The position numbers were made by a program, and so were the translations under genes. Positions 17,432-56,645 of a stretch of 64,000 nt of DNA are shown here, in pieces. The stretch covers positions 62,001 to 126,000 of the forward strand of contig CABYQM010000001.1 in assembly GCA_902521075.1 (NCBI GenBank), in the 5' to 3' direction. The DNA is from an uncultured Pelagibacteraceae bacterium (GTDB lineage Bacteria > Pseudomonadota > Alphaproteobacteria > Pelagibacterales > Pelagibacteraceae). The notes below the pieces were generated by a model. The model was given only the letters and a program-made list of their open reading frames with translations. It made no database searches and had not been told where the DNA came from. Numbering within the stretch: position 1 is the stretch's first letter; every line of letters begins with the position of its first letter.

Positions 17432-20011
17432 ATGTTTAAGTATATAAATATGAAATATTTTTTTATATTTTTGACTTTAATTATTCATAATCAAATATTT
17501 TTAAATATTGTCAAAGCTGAAGATATAACAATTTCATCTAATCACTCTAGTCAAATTGTTATGTCAAATAACGACACACTTACTGTTAATGCTGATGTTA
17601 CAGTTGATACAAGTGCAGCAGAACCTGTAGAACTAGAAGGCCATACTTTTTCAACAAGCTCGACAACTATAACTAATAACGGTACAATTATTGGAACGAC
17701 CAAAGGAATTGAAGCTGATCAATCTACAGATTTTAGTATAGATAATTCTGGAACAGTATCAGTGACTGATAATTTAAATAGACCTGGTTCAGCACTTTCA
17801 TTGCAACAGTCTAGTGGTACCGTATCAATTGTAAATAGTGGTACTTTAGAATCTGAACGAGCAGATACTATTAAGCTACACCCATCTACTGGAACAGTAA
17901 CAATTAATAATTCTGGAAATATTACATCTTCAAAAGATAGAACAATTAATTTTGGTCAACAGGCTAACGCAGGGACAATAATAAATTCTGGTACTATTTC
18001 GGGTAGAGCGAATACACTATATATATATTCATCAGGAACTGACTATTCAGCTGGCACTATTACAAATTCTGGGACGATCACCGCAACAGGAGGAAATGGC
18101 TTTGAAATTAATAATGTAAACGATGTCACTGTTACTAACACTGGTACTATCTCTGCTACAGGGGATGCAATTTTTGGTATTGGCGACAATGGCTCTAATG
18201 GAAACATAATTGTAAATAAAGGAACTATATCAAGTGGTTCAAGCAATCATGATTTAGTAGTGAAAACAAATGTAGGTCTTGAATCTCTAACAAATGATCA
18301 AGGAGGAAATGATGCTTTGAAATTGGAAGGCTATCTTCCAGTAAATTACGTCTTCCTAGCAAACAGCACAACTGATTATGGTAAGTTAGCTGTTGATCTG
18401 CAAAATGGTGCAACTACTTTCAGTATTAGCACAGATTCTGCTTTATCAGCTGGAACTTATACTTCTGTAATAACAGGAGTTTCTTCTAGTAGATTTACTG
18501 CTGGCTCTACAGGAACAGTAACTGTAACAAACGGAAAGTTTAATTGGACACTTAGTGAGACATCTTCGGGAAGCACGAATTGGAATTTAGTTGTTACAAA
18601 TTTTGATAATGATGCTCCAACTTTATCATCTTCAAGTCCATCCGATAATGCAACAGAAGTTGCAACAAATGCTAATATAGTTTTAACTTTTAGTGAAGCT
18701 GTTGATGCCGAAAGTGGAAATATTACTATAAAAAAAACATCTGATGATAGCACAATAGAAACAATTGACGTGACTGGAGCAAAAGTCAGTGGCAGCGGTT
18801 CTACAGCAATTACTATTAATCCAAGTACAGATTTTATAGCTGATATTGATTATTATATTTTAATAGATGCTACTGCTTTTGATGATACTAATGGCAATTC
18901 ATATGCAGGTATATCAAGCACAACTGCTTTAAATTTTTCTACAAAACCTGGTGAAGTTTTTAACGAAACTGTAAAAACACTTACAAAAAATCAAACCGTA
19001 GCTGCTATAAATTCTTTAAACCAGTCGTTAAATAGAATTTCAGGACGAATGAATTATATTAGATCTACAAATAATAATTTCTCAAATCAAAATATAAGAT
19101 TAGCAATGAATTTTGATAATCAATTATTAGCTCAACAAATAAATTCGCTTTCTGCAAAACTACTTAAAAAAGAAAAAGAAACAGAGAAATGGGGAGTTTG
19201 GAGCGAAGGTAATATATCATTTGGTAGAGTAGGGCATCAAGATGGGAATTTAGGCCAAGATATTCATAGTGATGGAATTACTTTTGGAATTGATAAGAAA
19301 ATAAATGAAGATAAGACTGTTGGTTTTGCAATCAATAAATCATGGCAAGAAACTGAAGTAGGTAGCAATGAAGCAAATATGGATGCTGCCACAATAAGTA
19401 TTATGAATTACACAAGTTTTAAAATTGAAGACAAGAGATTTTTCGAAATGGTTGTTGGAATTGGAGAAATGGATATAGAATTAAGCAGAGATGTTACAGG
19501 TGGAAAAAATAAAGGAGATAGAAAAGGAAATCAACTTTTTGGAAGCTTTACTTATTTATTAGAACCTGATGTTGAAGTTGTAGGTAGAAATTTAAATTAT
19601 TATTCTAGACTTGATTTAGGATTTACCCAACTAAAGGCATATACAGAAACAGGTGATGGAACAGCTGTAAGTTATAATAAACAAAACGTTAAAAGTGCAT
19701 CACTTTCTGCAGGTTTAAATTTAAGTAAAGTTATTGAGAATGAAAAAGGTATATTTGAACCATCTTTTAAATTTGAATTAGGAAAAGATAAAACAATCAA
19801 CTCACTATCAGAGGCATATTATATCAATAATTCTTCTGAAATTTATAGTAATGCTTTAGGCGATCAAAATTCTGGGCATTTATTGTTGAATTTAGGAATT
19901 GGGGCAAAACTCAACAGCAATTTGACTATAAATGCTACATATGAACACTACAGAAGTAGTGACAATACTTTTAATAATAGTTTTTCAATTTATTTAAGAA
20001 AACCCTTATAA
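17432..20011 (+). CDS. Autotransporter-like surface protein with NSGT-type repeats and an Ig-like domain
   Basis: An 859-residue secreted protein. The signal peptide is near residues 1-30; a second possible start is the ATG at 17450. Residues about 60-290 form repeated NNGTI / NSGTI units predicting a beta-helix passenger. Residues about 390-505 resemble a bacterial Ig-like SwmB/Big_5 domain (APTLSSSSPSDNATEV through ALNFSTKPGE). A helical linker follows, and residues about 585-859 look like an outer-membrane autotransporter beta barrel (EKWGVWSEGNISFGRVG onwards). The chain ends in RKPL rather than the usual terminal Phe/Trp. It lies 8 bases upstream of the moxR-like gene. Probably an adhesin or surface-structure protein; ligand unknown. 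Confidence 0.75.
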   Translation: MFKYINMKYFFIFLTLIIHNQIFLNIVKAEDITISSNHSSQIVMSNNDTLTVNADVTVDTSAAEPVELEGHTFSTSSTTITNNGTIIGTTKGIEADQSTDFSIDNSGTVSVTDNLNRPGSALSLQQSSGTVSIVNSGTLESERADTIKLHPSTGTVTINNSGNITSSKDRTINFGQQANAGTIINSGTISGRANTLYIYSSGTDYSAGTITNSGTITATGGNGFEINNVNDVTVTNTGTISATGDAIFGIGDNGSNGNIIVNKGTISSGSSNHDLVVKTNVGLESLTNDQGGNDALKLEGYLPVNYVFLANSTTDYGKLAVDLQNGATTFSISTDSALSAGTYTSVITGVSSSRFTAGSTGTVTVTNGKFNWTLSETSSGSTNWNLVVTNFDNDAPTLSSSSPSDNATEVATNANIVLTFSEAVDAESGNITIKKTSDDSTIETIDVTGAKVSGSGSTAITINPSTDFIADIDYYILIDATAFDDTNGNSYAGISSTTALNFSTKPGEVFNETVKTLTKNQTVAAINSLNQSLNRISGRMNYIRSTNNNFSNQNIRLAMNFDNQLLAQQINSLSAKLLKKEKETEKWGVWSEGNISFGRVGHQDGNLGQDIHSDGITFGIDKKINEDKTVGFAINKSWQETEVGSNEANMDAATISIMNYTSFKIEDKRFFEMVVGIGEMDIELSRDVTGGKNKGDRKGNQLFGSFTYLLEPDVEVVGRNLNYYSRLDLGFTQLKAYTETGDGTAVSYNKQNVKSASLSAGLNLSKVIENEKGIFEPSFKFELGKDKTINSLSEAYYINNSSEIYSNALGDQNSGHLLLNLGIGAKLNSNLTINATYEHYRSSDNTFNNSFSIYLRKPL
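17665..18240 (+). repeat. Degenerate NSGTI-type repeats in the first autotransporter passenger
   Basis: About ten imperfect copies of an Asn-Asn/Ser-Gly-Thr-Ile unit at roughly 20-30 residue spacing. DNA identity between units is low, so this is protein-level repetition typical of a beta-helix, not a DNA tandem array. Confidence 0.6.
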
Positions 20012-37310: not shown

Positions 37311-37743
37311 AATTTTATTCATCATAATATTTTCTTTAATGGCAAACGTTGCATTTGCGGATAATCATGATCAAAAACAAGAAGTCTTAGATGCAGCAAA
37401 AGAAATTGTTAAAGAAATGGAAGAAGATGAAGAAGTTCCATTAAATGATCCATTTGCAGGAAATGAGGGAACTTCATCTTCAGCAAGTATACCACAAGAC
37501 GAACAAGATAATGAAATGAGCTTATATAATTTTAAATTAGCTGGGCTTATTTCTGGAAAAGATTATAGTTACATTTCTTTAGTTAATTCTGGTGGAGAAG
37601 TTTTAACAATGACATTGGGCCAATATCTTGGAGAAATACAATTAGTTGATTTAAGATTAACAGAAGCAATATTCAAAAAAGATGATGGTAAATTCATGAT
37701 AATTGATTTTAATAACCAGGTCCGGGAGTCAGATGACTATTAA
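37297..37743 (+). CDS. pilP: PilP-like pilus alignment protein
   Basis: A 148-residue exported protein with a signal peptide (about residues 1-21, ending NVAFAD), an acidic disordered linker with NDPF (the PilP-type segment that binds PilN/PilO), and a compact beta domain (about 75-140, FKLAGLISGKDYSYISLVN). PilP normally is a lipoprotein; here no lipobox Cys is visible, so it may be a soluble periplasmic form. The C terminus overlaps pilQ by 11 bases. Confidence 0.82.
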   Translation: MNFFKILFIIIFSLMANVAFADNHDQKQEVLDAAKEIVKEMEEDEEVPLNDPFAGNEGTSSSASIPQDEQDNEMSLYNFKLAGLISGKDYSYISLVNSGGEVLTMTLGQYLGEIQLVDLRLTEAIFKKDDGKFMIIDFNNQVRESDDY

Positions 37744-39286
37744 AAAAATATTAACATATTTTGGATTATTATTTTTATTAGTTGCATTAAATGCTTGTCA
37801 GAACTTGAAAAAATATGACAAGCCATTTAAACACAATACACCTCTTATAAAAAATAAAGATATTGTAAGTAGTGGACAATCAGAAATCGCTAAAACATTA
37901 GAAATGGGTCCTAAACCTATTGAAGGAGATGCAAAAAAACTTGGAAAAAGAAAAAAAATATCATCTGAAGCACAAAGAAATTACTTAATAATACCTGATG
38001 ACTATCCACTATTAAAACAACGGGTAACTCTTAAATTTAAAAACTTAGATTATAAAGAAACCATGAAATTGATGGGTAAAATAGGAGAGATAAATGTACT
38101 AGTTGGAGATGAAGTTGCAGGAGCAATATCAGCAGAATTAATCGATGTTCCTTGGGACAAAGCTTTTCAAGCACTTTTAGATATGAAAAATTATGCATCA
38201 GATGTTGATGTTGCAAGTAATTTGATAAGAGTTCATTCGCCTGAAACACTAACTGCACAAGAAACTTATAAGTCTGAAAGAGCGCAAGCTGTTAAAAAGA
38301 AAGTAGAATTAGAAGATAGTGTTGAGCCAATATATTCTGAGATTTTCAGACTTTATTATATAACTCCTGCTCAAGCTAAACAAACTATTGATGAGTTATT
38401 TACTTCGACTGCAGGAGATAGTTCATATACACCAATACAAATTACTGAAGAAGCAACAACACGATCTATAATTGTAAGAGGAAAAGAAAAAGATTTAGAT
38501 GTAGTTGATAAAGTTATTAAAGAAATAGATATAAGAACAAAACAAGTTTTAATAGAAGCTTTTATAGTTGAAGCAAATTCTGATTTTGAAAAAGCACTTG
38601 GAACTAGACTGGGTGGATACTATCAAAGAGCCGGTAAAGTTGCTGGTGGATTATCAGGTGGAAGCGCTGGAAGTGCTTTAGGTGTAGAACCAGGTGGAGC
38701 AGCTAATCTTGGTGATGCAACAGATAGTTTGGCAAATTTTGCAATTACAAATCCAACAAGTGGTATTGGAATTTTAAGACGAACTGGCTCGGGTGTTTTA
38801 AAAGCAGAAATTACAGCATTAGAAAGAATGGGAATGGGTAAAACTATTTCTAATCCAAAAGTATTCACTTTAGATAATCAAGTAGCAACCGTTACTCAAG
38901 GTGAGGAAATACCTTATGAAGCTCCAGGAGAAGGCGGAGGATCTCAAGTATCTTTCAAAGAAGCAGCTCTTAAATTAGAGGTTACTCCAAGCATTATTGG
39001 AGATGGAAATGTTTTGTTAAGTATTCAAGTTAATAATGATACACCAAATAGATCAGTTGCAGGTGATACGCCGGCAGTTAACAAAATGGAAATTGTAACA
39101 AAATTATTGGTGGCAGATGGTGATATAGTTGTAATTGGTGGAATTAAAAAGAATGTTTTATCAAAATCTAAAGACCAACTTCCAGCTATAGGCAATGTAC
39201 CTGTAATAGGTAATCTCTTTAAAGGAACTGAAAATTCTGATAACCTAGATGAATTGTTAGTGTTTATAGCACCAAGAATTTTATAA
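37733..39286 (+). CDS. pilQ: PilQ, outer-membrane secretin (lipoprotein form)
   Basis: The ATG at 37733 gives a 517-residue protein with a lipoprotein signal (lipobox LNAC); the frame extends upstream to 37703 but that start would spoil the signal peptide. An STN/N0-type domain (VPWDKAFQALLDMKNYA), an N1 domain (IFRLYYITPAQAKQTIDELF) and the secretin domain follow. The secretin shows VLIEAFIVEANSDFEKALG, MGKTISNPKVFTLDNQ, and the terminal signature NVPVIGNLFKGT...ELLVFIAPRIL. PilQ forms the pore for the pilus. It lacks the long AMIN domains of gammaproteobacterial PilQ and resembles short secretins. The stop overlaps the pilB start. Confidence 0.92.
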   Translation: MTIKKILTYFGLLFLLVALNACQNLKKYDKPFKHNTPLIKNKDIVSSGQSEIAKTLEMGPKPIEGDAKKLGKRKKISSEAQRNYLIIPDDYPLLKQRVTLKFKNLDYKETMKLMGKIGEINVLVGDEVAGAISAELIDVPWDKAFQALLDMKNYASDVDVASNLIRVHSPETLTAQETYKSERAQAVKKKVELEDSVEPIYSEIFRLYYITPAQAKQTIDELFTSTAGDSSYTPIQITEEATTRSIIVRGKEKDLDVVDKVIKEIDIRTKQVLIEAFIVEANSDFEKALGTRLGGYYQRAGKVAGGLSGGSAGSALGVEPGGAANLGDATDSLANFAITNPTSGIGILRRTGSGVLKAEITALERMGMGKTISNPKVFTLDNQVATVTQGEEIPYEAPGEGGGSQVSFKEAALKLEVTPSIIGDGNVLLSIQVNNDTPNRSVAGDTPAVNKMEIVTKLLVADGDIVVIGGIKKNVLSKSKDQLPAIGNVPVIGNLFKGTENSDNLDELLVFIAPRIL

Positions 39287-41034
39287 TGATAAATATTAGT
39301 AGAGAGTCTGAGATTAATTTAATTAATATTCTTATTGATCAGGATATTATTTCGGGGAAAGATTTAGTTGAAATTAAAAAAATATCTGGCGAAGGAGAAA
39401 AATCTCAGTTGGATGCAGTATTTGAGTTAAATCTAACTGATGAAGAAAAGATTTTAGATCTTTTAGTAAAAGATCAATCATTAGATGTAGTAGATTTATC
39501 GACAGTTGCTGTAACTGACGAATTGAAAGCTGTTCTTCCATCTAATTACATTAATATGAACTTTATAGCTCCTTTCAAAATTGAGGGAAAAGTATTGCAC
39601 ATTGCAATATCTGATATTTCAAAATTAAGTTTAATGAGAAATTTACGAACAATTACAAAAATGGATATAGAACTGCACGCAGCAAAAGTTTCTGATATTT
39701 CAAACTTTGTAGATAAATTGCTAGCAGACGGTGAGAGAACTATCTCTGATATTAGACAAACTAATGCCGAGAAGACCAAAACATTTGATTACGATGTAGA
39801 TGATCAAGCAGAAGTTTTAGAAAAACCACCTGAAGAAGATATTGAAGCTATAGAAAACGAGTCTGAAGTAATTAAGTTTAGTACAGCAGTTGTAGCAGAA
39901 GCAATTAAATCAGGAGTTTCAGATATTCATATTGAACCTTATCGATTTACATCAAGAGTTAGGTATAGATTAGATGGAATTTTACAAGAACAAGAACACT
40001 TTAAAAAATTTCTTCATTCAAATTATGGAGCCGTAGTCACAAGATTTAAGATTATGGGAAAATTAGACATTGCTGAAAGAAGACTTCCTCAAGATGGAGC
40101 AATTCCATTTAAAATTGATGGAAAAGTAGTTGATCTTCGTCTTTCGATTTTACCAACTGCAACAAATGAAAGAATAGTAATGAGGGTTTTAAATAAAGAT
40201 GCAGGAGACATCAGTTTAGAACAACTTAATTTTGAAGAAAACGATTTAAAAAATTTAAGAAAAGCAATTCATGGCACACAAGGTTTAGTTCTTGTAACAG
40301 GTCCCACTGGATCAGGTAAAACAACAACACTTTATAGTATTCTAAAAGAAGTTTCAAAACCTCACCTAAATATTTTAACTGCGGAAGATCCTGTCGAATA
40401 TGAATTGGATGGTGTTGGACAAGTTCAAATTAAAGATGATATTGGTTTTAATTTTTCTACTGCACTAAGATCTTTTTTAAGACAAGACCCAGAAATAATT
40501 CTTGTTGGTGAGATGAGGGATAAAGAAACAGTTGATATTGGATTGAAGGCTGCTTTAACAGGTCACTTGGTATTCAGTACACTTCACACAAATGATGCAC
40601 CAAGCACCATTACAAGATTACAAAACATGGGAACACCTGATTATTTGATTAGTGCAGCTGTTTCACTTGTTTTGGCACAAAGATTAGCAAGAAAAACTTG
40701 TGCAGAATGTAGAGTACCAGATGAAGATATAACCCCTAAAGCTTTAGCTGATTTGGGATTTACAGTTGAACAGGCTTCAAGGGCAAAAGTTCAAAAAGGC
40801 AGTGGTTGTCCAAAATGTAAAGATACTGGTTATAAAGGCAGAATGGGTATTTATGAAATTCTAAATGTTACAAAACCAATAAAAGAAGCAATTTTAAGAA
40901 AAGCAACAACCCCTGAACTTAAAGAAATTGCTTCAAACGAGGGTTTTAGGACAATGCAAGATATGGGAAGAGAATTAATCCTAACAGGTGATCTGAATTT
41001 TAGAGAGTATGATAGAGTCCTCTCTATGGAGTAG
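39286..41034 (+). CDS. pilB: PilB, pilus assembly (extension) ATPase
   Basis: A 582-residue GspE/PilB ATPase. An N-terminal GspEII-type domain (about residues 1-150) is followed by the ATPase core: SDIHIEPYRFTSRVRYRLDG, Walker A GPTGSGKTTTLYSIL, Asp box TAEDPVEYELDG, Walker B RQDPEIILVGEMRDKET, and the His box GHLVFSTLHTNDAPSTITRL. A zinc motif CAEC...CPKC is present, as in extension ATPases. It drives pilin polymerisation, opposing PilT. It shares bases with the pilQ stop and lies three bases before pilC. Confidence 0.94.
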   Translation: MINISRESEINLINILIDQDIISGKDLVEIKKISGEGEKSQLDAVFELNLTDEEKILDLLVKDQSLDVVDLSTVAVTDELKAVLPSNYINMNFIAPFKIEGKVLHIAISDISKLSLMRNLRTITKMDIELHAAKVSDISNFVDKLLADGERTISDIRQTNAEKTKTFDYDVDDQAEVLEKPPEEDIEAIENESEVIKFSTAVVAEAIKSGVSDIHIEPYRFTSRVRYRLDGILQEQEHFKKFLHSNYGAVVTRFKIMGKLDIAERRLPQDGAIPFKIDGKVVDLRLSILPTATNERIVMRVLNKDAGDISLEQLNFEENDLKNLRKAIHGTQGLVLVTGPTGSGKTTTLYSILKEVSKPHLNILTAEDPVEYELDGVGQVQIKDDIGFNFSTALRSFLRQDPEIILVGEMRDKETVDIGLKAALTGHLVFSTLHTNDAPSTITRLQNMGTPDYLISAAVSLVLAQRLARKTCAECRVPDEDITPKALADLGFTVEQASRAKVQKGSGCPKCKDTGYKGRMGIYEILNVTKPIKEAILRKATTPELKEIASNEGFRTMQDMGRELILTGDLNFREYDRVLSME

Positions 41035-41037
41035 TAA

Positions 41038-42279
41038 ATGTCAGCCGAAACTTTTTCTTACAAAGGAATATCTGCAGGTAAATATATTGAAGGTGAAATA
41101 GAGGCTATAAATCAAGAAGAAGCTTCCTTTAAACTTAAAGAGCAAAAAATAATCATTACCAACTTAACCAAACTTAAAAAGAAAAAAGCTGAAAAAGAAA
41201 AGGGCAAAAAAAGCGGTTTTTCTTTTGGTAAGAAAAAAGTCACCCCTGCAGATGTAATGCTTTTTTCCAAGCAATTTGCAACAATGGTAAAAGCGGGTTT
41301 GCCAATTTTAAATGTTTTAACGATGCTTAGAGACCAAATAGAACATCCAACGATGAAAGAAATAATAGAGGATGTAAGAAAAAGTCTTGAAGGCGGTGTA
41401 ACTCTTTCTAAATGTTTTGAGAAATATCCTAAAATATTTGATAATATTTATATAAACTTGATTAAAGCTGGAGAGGCCAGCGGTAAACTTGATGATTTCC
41501 TTTTAAAATTAGTAGACTCATTAGAAAAAAGAGAAAAAGTTAAAAAGAAAATTAAAAGTGCATTAACCTACCCAGTCGTTATGTTTACTGTTGCAATAAC
41601 AGTTATGGTGTTCATGTTAATTAAAGTTGTCCCCGTATTTGCTGAAATGTATGAGGGAATGGGTGTTGCATTACCTACACCAACAGCTGTAATTATGAAT
41701 GCAAGTAATTTTATGAGAGGTGCTGGTGGACTAACACTTGGAATAGTATCAATAATAGGTTTTGTGATATTTAAATATACAACAACTAAAATTCCTGCAA
41801 TTAGATATAAGTGGCATCAACGAGTTTTAAAGATGCCTGTATTTGGAGACATGATTTTAAAATCATTGATTGCTAGGATTGCATTAATAATGGGTAATCT
41901 TAGTGCAGCAGGAGTAAACCTTTTAGAAAGTATAGAAATCGCTAAACAAGTAAGTAATAACGATGTTGTAACTCAAGCGTTAGAAAATGTTAAAAAAGGA
42001 GTTTTTTCAGGAGACACACTTACAAAATTATTTTTAAAAGAACCAGTTTTTCCTCCAACATTTAGTCAATTAATTTCAGTTGGTGAACAAACAGGAAATT
42101 TAGATGAAATGTTTACATCTGTATCTTCATACTATGAAGAAGAATTTGATACAGCGGTAGATAATATGTCTAGTTTAATTGAACCAATCATGATTGTATT
42201 TATGGGAACAATGATTGGTGGATTGATGATCGCTATGTATTCACCAATCTTTAATGTTGGTGCAATTATTGGCGGTTAA
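41038..42279 (+). CDS. pilC: PilC, inner-membrane platform protein (GspF family)
   Basis: A 413-residue protein with an N-terminal basic region (about 40-65), two GspF domains and three or four transmembrane helices. Signatures are FSKQFATMVKAGLPILNVL, GEASGKLDDFL in the first repeat and SVGEQTGNLDEMF in the second. PilC is rotated by PilB and PilT during pilus dynamics. It ends the pilMNOPQBC operon. Its stop overlaps by 4 bases the stop of the convergent RsbW-like gene. Confidence 0.94.
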   Translation: MSAETFSYKGISAGKYIEGEIEAINQEEASFKLKEQKIIITNLTKLKKKKAEKEKGKKSGFSFGKKKVTPADVMLFSKQFATMVKAGLPILNVLTMLRDQIEHPTMKEIIEDVRKSLEGGVTLSKCFEKYPKIFDNIYINLIKAGEASGKLDDFLLKLVDSLEKREKVKKKIKSALTYPVVMFTVAITVMVFMLIKVVPVFAEMYEGMGVALPTPTAVIMNASNFMRGAGGLTLGIVSIIGFVIFKYTTTKIPAIRYKWHQRVLKMPVFGDMILKSLIARIALIMGNLSAAGVNLLESIEIAKQVSNNDVVTQALENVKKGVFSGDTLTKLFLKEPVFPPTFSQLISVGEQTGNLDEMFTSVSSYYEEEFDTAVDNMSSLIEPIMIVFMGTMIGGLMIAMYSPIFNVGAIIGG

Positions 42280-42710: not shown

Positions 42711-43010
42711 TCAGTCCAAATTTAAAATTTGTTCAAGTTTTGCCATCATAATTACTTTCAAAACTGACTTGCTGATCTCTTTCAAAATTACTTTTGTTCC
42801 AAGTTCAGTTGCTTTTTGGTGACTTTCAATTAAAACTGATATTCCAGAAGAATCCATGTACTGTACTTCTTTTAAGTTAAGATGAACTTCTTTTTTGGCT
42901 TCAATTAAAGGCATAATAATTTCTTTTGCCTTTTCAGTGACGTCCATATCTATTTCACCGTCTAGATGAACTGTAGATATGTTACCTTCTTCAGTAACTT
43001 TATATGACAT
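42711..43010 (-). CDS. STAS-domain antagonist (anti-anti-sigma-factor-like)
   Basis: A 99-residue single-domain STAS protein of the SpoIIAA/RsbV type. The phosphorylation segment is QYMDSSGISVLIE, with S55 aligning with the phosphorylated serine of SpoIIAA. When dephosphorylated by a SpoIIE-type phosphatase, such proteins bind the RsbW-like kinase and free its target. It is cotranscribed with the kinase gene downstream. The two SpoIIE-domain proteins in this window (15170-16459 and 44377-46527) are its natural candidate phosphatases. Confidence 0.92.
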   Translation of the reverse strand: MSYKVTEEGNISTVHLDGEIDMDVTEKAKEIIMPLIEAKKEVHLNLKEVQYMDSSGISVLIESHQKATELGTKVILKEISKSVLKVIMMAKLEQILNLD

Positions 43011-43151: not shown

Positions 43152-43622
43152 ATGAAAAAAAATAGTAAAGGATTTACACTTATAGAATTATTGGTCGTTG
43201 TAGCAATTATTGGTATTCTTGCAGCAGTTGGTGTTGTTGCATACTCTGGCTACACTTCAGGAGCTAAAAAACAGGCAGCAAAATCTACACATGCAAACGT
43301 CGTTAAATATATTTCTGCTGAATTACAAAAATGTAACTTAGGAGAAACAAGTGCAATGGGTGGTAAATTAACTTGTAGTGGTAAGACCCCAACAACTGTT
43401 ATTAATGCAGCTATTGCAACTGACGGTCCTTTTGCAGATTTTAAAAACCCATATGTTACTGCTGATGCAGCAGTAAGAAGTGGCTCAACTACAAGTAATG
43501 GTGGTTATGTTAATCTCGCAACTAACGGATCGGACAAAGTAGATGTTAAAACTTGTTTTACACAAGACTCAGAATGTTCAACTTCAAGTAACGTTCTGAC
43601 AAAAACCATTACGATTGAATAA
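43152..43622 (+). CDS. pilA: Type IV pilin, probable major subunit
   Basis: A 156-residue prepilin with leader MKKNSKG and mature N terminus FTLIELLVVVAIIGILAAVG (Glu5 present), followed by a globular domain with four cysteines, including a C-terminal pair in KTCFTQDSECS typical of a D-loop disulfide. It should be cleaved by the PilD encoded at 16628. A second pilin gene follows 8 bases later. Whether this or the neighbour is the major pilin cannot be told from sequence; the ribosome-binding site favours this one. Confidence 0.9.
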   Translation: MKKNSKGFTLIELLVVVAIIGILAAVGVVAYSGYTSGAKKQAAKSTHANVVKYISAELQKCNLGETSAMGGKLTCSGKTPTTVINAAIATDGPFADFKNPYVTADAAVRSGSTTSNGGYVNLATNGSDKVDVKTCFTQDSECSTSSNVLTKTITIE

Positions 43623-43645
43623 TTCATAATTTGAATAAAATTTTT

Positions 43646-44059
43646 ATGACTTCCAAAAGCTCAGGCTTTACGCTTATTGAGCTTTTGGTGGTTGTTGCAA
43701 TCCTTGGAATTATAGCTGCTATCGGTATTGTGAGTTATAATGGATATGTCAGCTCAGCCAAAAAAAGATCTGCTGAAAATGTTATGCAACAAATATCTTT
43801 AGGGCAAACTGAATATTACTCAGACAACGGAATTTATTACAGAAATAGCACAGGAACTTCATGCAATCCAACAAGTACCACATCAAGTGCAATAGAAACT
43901 AATTTATTAGGTGGTACTGATAGCATTACAAGTGAAATGGGTTACGAACTATGTGTCGCAAATGATGCAACAAATTATAAAGTTATTGCAAAAGAAAACG
44001 GTGGAAATTGTGAAATCACCATGACAGCACTCGGTGCTTTTGTAAGAACCAATTGCTAA
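43646..44059 (+). CDS. Second type IV pilin, tandem paralogue
   Basis: From the ATG at 43646 this is a 137-residue prepilin (a TTG at 43631 would add five residues). Leader MTSKSSG precedes FTLIELLVVVAILGIIAAIG with Glu5. The N-terminal 30 residues closely match the preceding pilin, while the globular domain differs. Cysteines in SCNPTS, ELCVAND, GNCEIT and the terminal TNC could form two disulfides. It may be a minor or alternative pilin. It lies eight bases after pilA by the longer frame, so cotranscription is likely. Confidence 0.87.
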   Translation: MTSKSSGFTLIELLVVVAILGIIAAIGIVSYNGYVSSAKKRSAENVMQQISLGQTEYYSDNGIYYRNSTGTSCNPTSTTSSAIETNLLGGTDSITSEMGYELCVANDATNYKVIAKENGGNCEITMTALGAFVRTNC

Positions 44060-44066
44060 ATACCTC

Positions 44067-44312
44067 ATGAACTATCAAGAAATTTTAGAAAAAGTAAAAG
44101 TAGCATTTTCAGGTGGATTACCAAAAAATGTTAAAATTTATTTAACTATAAGTTTAGCCTGGATAATATTGATTGGATATTTAACATGGTGGAATGGATT
44201 AAAAAGTCCAATGTTAGATAAAAGCTTTAGGTGGGACGAATGGTTTTGGTTTGGGATAGTCCCAGCTGTTTCACCTTATATTTTCTATTATATTTGGAAG
44301 AAAAAAGAGTAA
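44067..44312 (+). CDS. Small two-helix membrane protein, unknown
   Basis: An 81-residue protein with two hydrophobic helices (about residues 24-41 and 60-75) separated by a short charged loop with LDKSFRWDEWFWFG. I do not recognise a family. It follows the second pilin by 7 bases and precedes the Amt-SpoIIE fusion by 64 bases on the same strand. Sequence character (Trp-rich, regular helices) supports a real protein. A role in the pilus or near the Amt fusion is only a positional guess. Confidence 0.6.
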   Translation: MNYQEILEKVKVAFSGGLPKNVKIYLTISLAWIILIGYLTWWNGLKSPMLDKSFRWDEWFWFGIVPAVSPYIFYYIWKKKE

Positions 44313-44376: not shown

Positions 44377-46527
44377 ATGGAGAGTGTTGATCTGGAGTCA
44401 GTAAAATCATTTGTTGATACCCTTTGGGTTATAGATTGTGCAATTCTTGTTTTTATTATGCAAGCAGGCTTTATGTGTATGGAAACAGGTCTATCAAGAC
44501 ACAAAAATAGCATTAATGTTGCTCTTAAAAATGCTGCTGACTTTGGTCTTGCGGTTGTAATTTTCTGGTTATTTGGTTTTGGCTTGATGTTTGGGAAAAG
44601 TTTTAATGGCTATTTTGGAACCGATTTATTCTTTTTTAAAACAGATCAGGCTGAATATATGACTTACTTTGTCTTTCAAGCAATGTTTGTTGCAACAGCA
44701 GCCACAATTGTATCAGGTGCTGTTGCTGAAAGAATGAAATTTAATGGATACTTAATCATTACAATAATAGCTACAGGAATTATATATCCAATTGTTGGTC
44801 ATTGGGCATGGTCTTCTAGTTATTTAAATAATATTGATGCAACAAGACAACTGCTTGCTGTTACAGGACAAGTTAAAACAACTGGTTGGTTAACAGATAT
44901 AGGATTTGTAGATTTTGCTGGAAGTACAATCGTACATTCAGTTGGTGGTTGGATTGCTTTATCAGCAGTTTTAATTTTAGGTCCGAGAATTGGAAAATAT
45001 TCAGATGCAAATAAAGGAAAGTTCACTGGCTCAAGTTTCCCTTTAGCAGTTTTAGGAACCCTAATTTTATGGTTTGGGTGGTTTGGTTTTAATGGTGGAA
45101 GTAATGGTGCTATGGATGATGCCGTTCCTTTAATTTTAATTAATACATTTCTAGCTGCTTCATTTGGATTACTAACAGGTCTTGGAATTTCATTTGCATT
45201 ATTTAAAAAACCAGATCCTTACTATGTAATTCTTGGACCACTTGCAGGGTTAGTAGCAATAACAGCAGGATGTAATTCGATGACATCAGTGACTTCAATC
45301 TTTGTTGGGATTATAGGAGCGGTAGTTGCAATTTTTGTAAATGAATTTTTAAATAAATTTGAAATAGATGATGTTGTTGGAGCAGTACCTGTTCATTTGG
45401 CAGCAGGGGTTTGGGGTACTATTGCAGTTGGATTATTTAGCGATCTTGAAATTTTAGGAACAGGACTATCCAGACTAGAACAAATTAAAGTACAATTTAT
45501 TGGAATTGTTTCAATTGGTGTATTCTCATTTTTTGGGTCATATATTTTATTAAAAATTTTGAATTATATTTATCCATTAAGAGTAAGCCCGTTACATGAA
45601 GAGTTAGGGCTTAATATTGCAGAACACAATGCAACGTCTGTAGAACACGATTTAATTACAATTTTAGAAAAACAATCTGAGTCAGGCGATTTAACTATAA
45701 GAGGACCTCAAGATCCATTTACAGCTGGAGGTGTGATCGGTCTTTATTACAATAGATTGATGAGCAAACTAGAAAATAGTGAAGCTGAAAAAAAAGTATG
45801 GAGAGACAGAATATCTAATGAAGTAAAACTTGCTGTAAAAGTTCAAGAAAATTTTCTACCTAAGAGGAATTTAGAAAATTACCCTGTGCACGGAATTAAT
45901 ATTGCTGCTAGAGAAGTTTCTGGAGATTTCTTCAGCTTTTATCCTCACAATGATAGTGTTTACTTTATTATTGCAGATGTTGCGGGCAAAGGAATTCATG
46001 CTGGGATGGTAATGGCAAAAGCATCAACTTTATTTGAGATTATGTCTAGAGATCAAGTAGATCCAGATGAAATGATGTTTCATATGAACAATGATCTATT
46101 TTTAACAAAAACTGGAGGAATGTTTGTTACCAGTATATTGGGAGAATATAATATGAGGACTGATGAATTAAGATGGGTAAATGGAGGTCATCAACCAGCA
46201 TTAATTAGATCATCATCTGGAAATTATGAACAATTTGAGAGTAATTCACCGCCTATGGGTGTAATACTTCAAAAGGATAAATCAGTCTATAAAACGCACA
46301 AAGTTAAGTTAGAAAATAACAGGTTTTATGCTTTCACTGATGGTTTGTCTGAAAGCTTGAATAGCTCAGGTGAAGAAATAGGAATAGAGGGATCATTAAA
46401 AATAATAGAGCAAAATTTTAATACAGATTCTAGCAAACAATTATCTGATATATCAAATAGTGTAATTGATACTGCTGGAGACAACAAGTTAAGCGACGAC
46501 TTAACCTTAATATCTATAGGTAAATAA
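44377..46527 (+). CDS. Ammonium transporter fused to a SpoIIE/PP2C serine phosphatase
   Basis: A 716-residue two-part protein in one uninterrupted frame. Residues 1 to about 415 are a complete Amt/MEP channel with about 11 helices; twin pore histidines are present as AGSTIVHSVGG (H187) and VGAVPVHLAAGVWG (H340), and the Phe-gate region is VFQAMFVATAATIVSGAVAER. A cytosolic linker (about 415-490, including GPQDPFTAGGVIGLYYNRL) leads to a SpoIIE phosphatase domain (about 490-716) with intact metal residues: EVSGDFF (D517), DVAGKG (D534), FTDGLSE (D655), LSDDLTL (D707/D708). A strong ribosome-binding site AGAGGA is at 44366-44371. It lies just after pilin genes and near the RsbW/STAS pair. Ammonium-dependent dephosphorylation of the STAS protein is the obvious hypothesis. 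Confidence 0.92.
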   Translation: MESVDLESVKSFVDTLWVIDCAILVFIMQAGFMCMETGLSRHKNSINVALKNAADFGLAVVIFWLFGFGLMFGKSFNGYFGTDLFFFKTDQAEYMTYFVFQAMFVATAATIVSGAVAERMKFNGYLIITIIATGIIYPIVGHWAWSSSYLNNIDATRQLLAVTGQVKTTGWLTDIGFVDFAGSTIVHSVGGWIALSAVLILGPRIGKYSDANKGKFTGSSFPLAVLGTLILWFGWFGFNGGSNGAMDDAVPLILINTFLAASFGLLTGLGISFALFKKPDPYYVILGPLAGLVAITAGCNSMTSVTSIFVGIIGAVVAIFVNEFLNKFEIDDVVGAVPVHLAAGVWGTIAVGLFSDLEILGTGLSRLEQIKVQFIGIVSIGVFSFFGSYILLKILNYIYPLRVSPLHEELGLNIAEHNATSVEHDLITILEKQSESGDLTIRGPQDPFTAGGVIGLYYNRLMSKLENSEAEKKVWRDRISNEVKLAVKVQENFLPKRNLENYPVHGINIAAREVSGDFFSFYPHNDSVYFIIADVAGKGIHAGMVMAKASTLFEIMSRDQVDPDEMMFHMNNDLFLTKTGGMFVTSILGEYNMRTDELRWVNGGHQPALIRSSSGNYEQFESNSPPMGVILQKDKSVYKTHKVKLENNRFYAFTDGLSESLNSSGEEIGIEGSLKIIEQNFNTDSSKQLSDISNSVIDTAGDNKLSDDLTLISIGK

Positions 46528-55913: not shown

Positions 55914-55972
55914 AATTCAACAAATTACTAAAATTATTTTAATGCAAATACTTAAGGCTATGATATTATCAC

Positions 55973-56030
55973 TTTTAGATAGTCCTATCTAGCCATCTTT
56001 AGCTCCCGGTTTTTTAGGACTATCCTAAAA
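55973..56030 (+). promoter_or_regulatory. Long hairpin abutting the LysE-type start codon, occluding the ribosome-binding region
   Basis: Left arm TTTTAGATAGTCCTA (55973-55987) pairs with right arm TAGGACTATCCTAAAA (56015-56030) over 15 base pairs with one bulged C (56024) and a 27-base loop. The right arm contains the only AGGA (56016-56019) and ends at the base before the ATG at 56031. In RNA this would sequester the ribosome-binding region; as DNA it could be an operator. There is no T-run, so it is not an intrinsic terminator for the plus strand. Confidence 0.55.
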
Positions 56031-56645
56031 ATGCTTCCCTTAGATTTTATTCTTTTTTTACAGATCATTATTTTTATGTTCATAACTCCTGGTACACCTA
56101 GAATTGTTATTATTTCTTATTCTATGAACTACGGCGTTCAAAAATGTGTTTGGACTGCATTAGGAGATGTAACTGCAAATATAATTCAGGCAACTCTTGT
56201 AATATTTGTTATTGGATCTTTTTTGTCTGACAATCCAACAATATTAAATACTTTAAAATGGTTAGGTATCGCCTATTTAACATATCTCGCATATGATATT
56301 TATAAATCGAGACCTAAAGATATAAATACAAAAGATATTTTAGATAAAAGTTTTTTTTCATTTTATAAAGATGGATTTTTAGTTGCAGGAACAAGTCCAA
56401 AAGCATGGATGTTTTTTCCGTTTATATTTCCGCAATTTATTGATTTTAATTCTAATTATGTGATTCAATTTATTATTTTAATTACTACTTATGTAGTATT
56501 AGATTTTCTATCTTTAGTTGGTTATGCTATTCTAGCTAATAAATTAATTATTTGGATTAAAGCTAATCCTAAAATTATAAATACAATTTCAGCTTGTGTA
56601 ATTATTTTGATAGCCATAATTATTGCATTTACTCAACAATACTAA
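56031..56645 (+). CDS. LysE/RhtB-family exporter
   Basis: A 204-residue membrane protein with about six helices. The family N-terminal signature, usually F-x-x-x-x-PGP, reads MFITPGTPRIVIISYSMNYG here, and GDVTANIIQATLVIFVIGS and LKWLGIAYLTYLAYD fit the second and third conserved blocks. LysE/RhtB proteins export amino acids or related compounds. The first ATG follows directly after the hairpin at 55973-56030, which suggests translational control. The substrate is unknown. Confidence 0.85.
   Translation: MLPLDFILFLQIIIFMFITPGTPRIVIISYSMNYGVQKCVWTALGDVTANIIQATLVIFVIGSFLSDNPTILNTLKWLGIAYLTYLAYDIYKSRPKDINTKDILDKSFFSFYKDGFLVAGTSPKAWMFFPFIFPQFIDFNSNYVIQFIILITTYVVLDFLSLVGYAILANKLIIWIKANPKIINTISACVIILIAIIIAFTQQY

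Follow-up and report, generated by a model that had tools for sequence, protein, structure and literature searches.

The window analysed here, a stretch of 64,000 nucleotides from an uncultured member of the Pelagibacteraceae, carries a gene in which an Amt domain continues in frame into a SpoIIE/PP2C phosphatase domain (Table 1). We consider it probable that the encoded protein is an ammonium-gated phosphatase, which would act on the STAS protein encoded beside it as part of a partner switch. The original prediction of an Amt channel in frame with a SpoIIE domain was confirmed by one open frame containing both Pfam domains. Ammonium_transp (PF00909) covers residues 17-420 (E 2.8e-111, model positions 2-397 of 399), and SpoIIE (PF07228) covers residues 526-714 (E 4.3e-35, model positions 3-189 of 192). 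The Amt half also matches TIGR00836 above cut-off. The residues predicted as functional, namely H187/H340, D517, D534, D655 and D707/D708, are all present and invariant in 20 of 20 aligned sequences, window included; the alignment combines the window sequence and its orthologues (18 in all, identity to the window sequence 73-98%) with two divergent copies (53%). The metal-site aspartate D517 sits just N-terminal of the Pfam SpoIIE match. By motif, D517, D534, D655 and D707 correspond to D610, D628, D746 and D795, the metal ligands of Bacillus subtilis SpoIIE (PMC3517971, available part). The aspartates of the fusion are also invariant in 14 sequences comprising eight fusions and six SpoIIE proteins in which the sensor is of another kind or no sensor was recognised. 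The dN/dS ratio of the SpoIIE part is 0.035-0.16 for the window sequence against six orthologues, with synonymous sites near saturation. The RNA-family scan gave no match at the fusion locus, and the promoter and terminator scan remained near the shuffled level (14 promoters found, 19.0 expected; 2 terminators found, 1.4 expected).

Table 1. Coordinates of the fusion gene, its domains and related genes in the window.
Feature	Position	Strand	Evidence
Amt-SpoIIE fusion gene, 716 aa	44377..46527	+	Single ATG-started open frame; PF00909 and PF07228
Amt domain, receptor-type, aa 17-420, twin His H187/H340	44425..45636	+	Pfam; sensory-fusion clade; nearest solved chains 8qj3/8qpf, 6eu6
Linker aa 421-525, predicted helix aa 469-493 into phosphatase	45637..45951	+	17-linker alignment; model
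SpoIIE/PP2C domain, Pfam aa 526-714; D534, D655, D707, D708	45952..46518	+	Pfam; invariant residues; SiaA-PP2C structure match
STAS anti-sigma-antagonist-like protein, 99 aa, phospho-acceptor-like motif S54/S55	42711..43010	-	Pfam STAS, E 2.6e-16
RsbW-like serine kinase (HATPase_c_2), 143 aa	42276..42707	-	Pfam, E 2.2e-20
Type IV pilus-like genes: secretin, PilB/GspE-like ATPase, PilC/GspF-like protein	37703..42279	+	PilB, GspE, PilC and GspF models below cut-offs
Two pilin-like genes between switch genes and fusion	43152..44059	+	Pfam N_methyl
81-aa protein, two hydrophobic stretches, no family match	44067..44312	+	Adjoins pilins in several loci
Second phosphatase, GAF-SpoIIE, 429 aa	15170..16459	-	Pfam; only other SpoIIE match of the genome (78.5% complete)

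The kinship of the Amt half was assessed with a quick tree of 138 Amt domains, midpoint-rooted and with SH-aLRT support only. Domains shorter than 330 aa and duplicates of identical sequence had been excluded, and domains more than 93% alike merged (156 to 138). All 13 rows fused to SpoIIE fall into a single clade (SH-aLRT 100), the sister of which comprises nine fusions labelled GGDEF (support 72; one of them, L141, shows PAS only in its available part). The enclosing clade of 39 rows, defined under midpoint rooting, holds fusions only (SH-aLRT 97): 13 SpoIIE, 17 GGDEF-group, two histidine kinase (HK), five HisKA_3-group and two of the four MCP fusions. Its inner branches are weakly supported (35-85) and two MCP fusions fall outside this sensory Amt clade, both of which we counted against our best explanation. 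The 15 rows of stand-alone SAR11 Amts form a separate clade (SH-aLRT 100). Immediately behind the final membrane helix, 17 linkers are clearly similar to one another, those of ten GGDEF-group, five HK and one MCP fusion and that of the SpoIIE fusion. Nesting among Amt fusions with signalling outputs and the linker common to them both support the sensory reading of the Amt half proposed at the outset. The accompanying statement on kinase or GGDEF outputs in known Amt fusions was likewise borne out by the classified frames, with MCP to be added.

Compared by sequence and outside the tree, the nearest solved chains are Sd-Amt1 (8qj3/8qpf) and Ks-Amt5 (6eu6), whose PDB entries bear the titles "Receptor Sd-Amt1" in ON/OFF-state and "Sensor Amt Protein". 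Sd-Amt1 from Shewanella denitrificans (PDB 8qj3/8qj4/8qpf) is the closest solved relative (E 6e-120), with a match running from the Amt domain into the linker up to residue 480 and a chain of 644 residues as compared with the 716 residues of the fusion. For the Amt half, the whole-protein model is of low quality (mean pLDDT 60.5), and the fold ranking there (rmsd about 12) served for the entry titles only. Ks-Amt5 from Kuenenia stuttgartiensis is also an Amt receptor with a cytoplasmic C-terminal signalling domain, but its output is a histidine kinase (PMC5764959, available part), whereas the fusion carries a SpoIIE phosphatase. Among the seven ligands of the second ammonium site of Ks-Amt5, the fusion retains Q29, E36, N52, D55 and T110, in addition to the twin histidines and the Phe gate. 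T112 of Ks-Amt5 is conservatively replaced by S113, and T51 is lost (F56). The ligand set is full in 25 of 25 SpoIIE, 14 of 17 GGDEF-group, 2 of 2 HK and 3 of 4 MCP fusions, and in 0 of 5 HisKA_3-group fusions, 0 of 20 SAR11 stand-alone Amts and 39 of 83 other stand-alone Amts. Because it is so common among the last group, we rejected the set as a diagnostic mark of receptors; it fits a receptor without proving one.

Could the Amt half still be a working ammonium transporter, with a tethered phosphatase that reads transport or runs constantly? We regard this as unlikely. The pore is well preserved, as none of the 20 aligned sequences departs from H187/H340, the Phe gate (F104/F238) or W145 and 18 of them keep S242 (positions mapped from Ks-Amt5). 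Among the bulky helix I residues blocking the channel of Ks-Amt5 (F27, Y30, F34), one of three is present, as F32, with M35 and L39 in place of Y30 and F34, which would also suit a transporter. However, non-transporting Ks-Amt5 keeps the filter, the gate and the His pair (PMC5764959, available part), and the pore residues therefore do not decide between transporter and receptor. A transporter is disfavoured by the separate stand-alone Amt already present in the genome and by the grouping of the Amt half with signalling fusions instead of the stand-alone Amts of its own order. Judged by its sequence, the Amt half is probably a known ammonium-receptor module that received a new output.

As for the output half, a model of residues 404-716 reached a mean pLDDT of 77.9, with values of at least 85 for most ten-residue blocks within the phosphatase, and in this model the helix of residues 469-493 leads to the phosphatase fold. 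The best structural match is SiaA-PP2C from the SiaA/SiaC system of Pseudomonas aeruginosa (Z 26.2, rmsd 2.4, 237 residues, 16% identity over the phosphatase); further matches are the RsbU domain of Rv1364c (Z 24.3), SpoIIE (Z 23.1) and RssB. SiaA is a membrane-bound protein acting on a STAS protein, and its sensor domain differs from Amt. In the available part of PMC12143880, coiled-coil linkers are proposed to dimerise and activate PPM phosphatases, and sensors are proposed as common to these phosphatases, to kinases and to GGDEF enzymes; its main text nowhere uses the word transporter. Ks-Amt5 is a trimer, as opposed to the published activation of phosphatases by dimers (PMC12143880, available part), which we counted against our best explanation.

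The source genome (1.09 Mb, 27 contigs) is 78.5% complete. Among the matches listed, named relatives with proteins up to 98% identical are uncultured Pelagibacteraceae, which supports SAR11 as the source, and the Amt-SpoIIE architecture occurs in at least 11 named records of this family, ten orthologues and one divergent copy (L043). By hand count over 297 genomes of the family, an intact full-length orthologue is found in 34 of 101 genomes of the genus, our own included, and in 0 of 196 genomes of other genera; 14 genomes without a match were assigned to other genera, as the match list puts genomes of the same genus first. The copy in G748 is broken by two stops, and that in G586 is cut by a contig end. 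A divergent second Amt-SpoIIE protein (52-55% identity; e.g., L045:9876-12125) was observed in 14 of the 297 genomes, one of them of another genus (G461); 10 of these genomes have it and the orthologue arranged in tandem. Three genomes listed with one contig each (G482, G491, G499) carry both the orthologue and the divergent copy; in G491, the divergent copy, not the orthologue, adjoins the STAS gene. Four others, also listed with one contig each (G460, G473, G519, G012), carry neither.

Outside the Pelagibacteraceae, no Amt-SpoIIE protein was found among the matches listed and classified from 398 genomes of the phylum and 385 genomes of the class. Among the matches listed, loci from non-SAR11 named genomes (at least 69) match the fusion only up to residue 473; for other phyla, the coverage consisted of this named-genome scan and the plasmid and phage searches. 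In the phylum sample, 18 of the 20 listed Amt frames of at least 700 aa from outside our own group were classified, with some loci cutting the frame short; they comprise 15 GGDEF, one PAS (in the available part), one HK and one MCP fusion. The class-sample set of 11 frames, drawn from the matches listed and leaving out G853 and G949, two rows similar to G755, as well as rows starting later in the query, gave seven Amt-HK fusions and four SpoIIE proteins without Amt. A SpoIIE output is accordingly seen in 0 of 18 and 0 of 7 classified long Amt frames, as far as these are available. One candidate, G755, which matches from query residue 2, was rejected as a non-SAR11 Amt-SpoIIE protein and represents a GAF-PAS-GAF-SpoIIE protein without Amt. 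The Amt half and linker of the Amt-GGDEF, Amt-HK and Amt-MCP fusions (L046-L048, L134-L148, L170-L171, L175-L179 and others) are homologous to those of the fusion. The plasmid search returned no record covering 80% of the fusion protein, and a phage search using the protein from the linker through the phosphatase returned seven records, all partial. In the open-licence literature, we found no relevant paper on Amt with SpoIIE/PP2C or on Pelagibacter with SpoIIE, and none on Sd-Amt1 or Amt-GGDEF. The pairing of Amt with SpoIIE thus appears new as far as these searches reach, with receptor-type Amt fusions and partner switches both being known.

The STAS and kinase genes reside on the opposite strand, 1.4 kb upstream of the fusion and between the pilus-like genes. 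The STAS protein matches the NCBIfam model ant_ant_sig above cut-off, and its DSSG motif is invariant in 13 of 13 aligned sequences. The NCBIfam RsbW models match the kinase below their cut-offs, and its ATP-site motifs are invariant in 10 of 10 aligned sequences. The order secretin, ATPase, PilC-like protein, (kinase, STAS), pilins and fusion is conserved in 8 of 11 named loci; L037 and L042 do not show it, and the contig of L043 ends too near. Between the window locus, L035, L036 and L045, the two pilins are 48-61% identical and the secretin 71-83%; the pilins seem to diversify fast, because identity reaches 91-99% for the PilB-like, STAS, Amt and DAO genes of these loci. Elsewhere in the window, we observed a match to the rhtB sRNA family at 55960-56036 (+, 78.4 bits) and an 859-aa protein at 17432-20011 (+), which by eye resembles an autotransporter-type outer membrane protein.

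A gene for a candidate STAS partner, as anticipated in the original prediction, was found close by. All 34 genomes with an intact fusion have a strong STAS match (72-100% identity); among the remaining 67 genomes of the genus, 14 have one (Fisher 5.5e-16 for co-occurrence over 101 genomes, kinship not corrected). In this comparison, weak or partial matches in G473, G519 and G012 (34-37%) and a fragment in G728 were counted as absent. Fusion and STAS gene are no more than 5 kb apart in 30 of the 34 genomes and more than 20 kb apart in the other four. The 14 genomes of the genus with STAS and no intact orthologue, which count against our best explanation, include G586 with its contig-cut copy and G624 with a divergent copy. 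No STAS match was obtained in G748, whose fusion contains two stops, a single case; G496, from another genus, has an 84% STAS match and no fusion among the matches listed. The genome analysed here gave one STAS match. From the sequences and the locus, the STAS protein is likely the substrate of the fusion phosphatase, and the RsbW-like kinase is likely the partner of the STAS protein. A close parallel is the RsbU/RsbV/RsbW system of B. subtilis and Chlamydia (PMC4552016, available part), in which a PP2C phosphatase with a sensor domain, a STAS protein with a serine motif and a HATPase kinase likewise occur together; the sensor of the fusion differs in being an Amt domain.

An ammonium-gated phosphatase might instead have another phosphoprotein as its substrate, for which the four genomes with distant genes would speak, together with the less complete 61-genome sample, where only 10 of 14 fusion genomes have STAS and 4 show none. 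We consider this quite improbable, given the co-occurrence in 34 of 34 genomes, the close linkage in 30 of them and the single STAS match in our own genome (78.5% complete). Moreover, SpoIIE itself (PMC3517971, available part) and chlamydial RsbU (PMC4552016, available part) act on STAS-type proteins.

For the favoured reading, a phosphatase gated by ammonium and acting on the neighbouring STAS protein, we infer ammonium as the signal, the direction of its effect, the enzyme activity, the substrate and the target of the kinase. The receptor-type Amt domain in the membrane would bind external ammonium, as in Ks-Amt5 and Sd-Amt1, and a shape change would travel via the linker common to the receptors into the helix entering the SpoIIE/PP2C domain. 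A change in this helix could alter the pairing or closing of the phosphatase domains, and the phosphatase would then dephosphorylate the STAS protein encoded nearby at its serine. The dephosphorylated STAS protein would bind the RsbW-like kinase, thereby releasing whatever the kinase holds.

Gene position by itself suggests control of the pili by the switch. In Chlamydia, RsbU-RsbV1-RsbW acts on the primary sigma factor (PMC4552016, available part). The genome analysed here (78.5% complete) encodes two sigma-70-type proteins, in frames of 608 and 299 aa. The window contains the GAF-SpoIIE phosphatase gene beside cell-shape-like genes (mreB, rodA and mrdA, assigned by eye). A second gene arrangement was observed in L038, where a FecR-domain protein followed by a CHASE2-SpoIIE phosphatase lies some kilobases downstream of the fusion (L038:11572-14878) and two STAS genes stand in tandem. 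Because of the GAF-SpoIIE protein in our own genome and the CHASE2-SpoIIE protein in the L038 arrangement, several sensor phosphatases may feed one switch, and the GAF-SpoIIE protein is a possible second input to the same partner switch. It seems less tightly tied to the switch, because SpoIIE frames of about 430 aa, taken as the GAF type, occur also in genomes without a STAS match, e.g., G009. As a tentative and rather doubtful extension, the Amt phosphatase together with GAF- and CHASE2-type inputs could set the phosphorylation of one STAS protein and thereby control a kinase that holds the housekeeping sigma factor or else the type IV pilus system. If true, ambient ammonium would govern transcription or the use of pili, with neither PII nor a two-component system involved.

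The original prediction had the fusion take over the reading of ammonium status from GlnB/GlnK (PII) in SAR11 without PII, which we now regard as very doubtful. PII was found in none of 37 genomes of the genus, our own (78.5% complete) included, with a search that recovered it in 13 of 14 reference genomes used as control; another family in the order has it in 21 of 24 genomes. This shared lack of PII in our own genome and 36 others would be compatible with a replacement. However, the full-length fusion occurs in only 14 of these 37 genomes, many of which are incomplete, and the intact orthologue in only 34 of 101 in the larger sample. Because 23 of the 37 PII-less genomes are without a full-length fusion, PII replacement is not its general role, and we rejected the PII substitute as the main reading, most PII-searched genomes of the genus being without both PII and a detected fusion. 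PII senses 2-oxoglutarate and ATP/ADP inside the cell, signals that the fusion would not sense.

An assembly error joining two genes, raised in the original prediction, is ruled out because intact full-length copies exist in 34 of 101 different genomes, three of them listed as one-contig, and in at least 11 named records, and with the low dN/dS and nothing found against the window copy, as opposed to the one broken relative (G748), the chance of an artefact or a pseudogene is negligible.

A receptor and linker known with kinase, GGDEF and chemotaxis outputs are here joined to a serine phosphatase. With this fusion, the notion that sensors can be swapped among kinases, cyclases and phosphatases gains support and now takes in an entire channel-like membrane protein. 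In SAR11 bacteria, a partner switch located in a type IV pilus gene cluster would thereby be connected directly, and in a testable way, to ambient ammonium.
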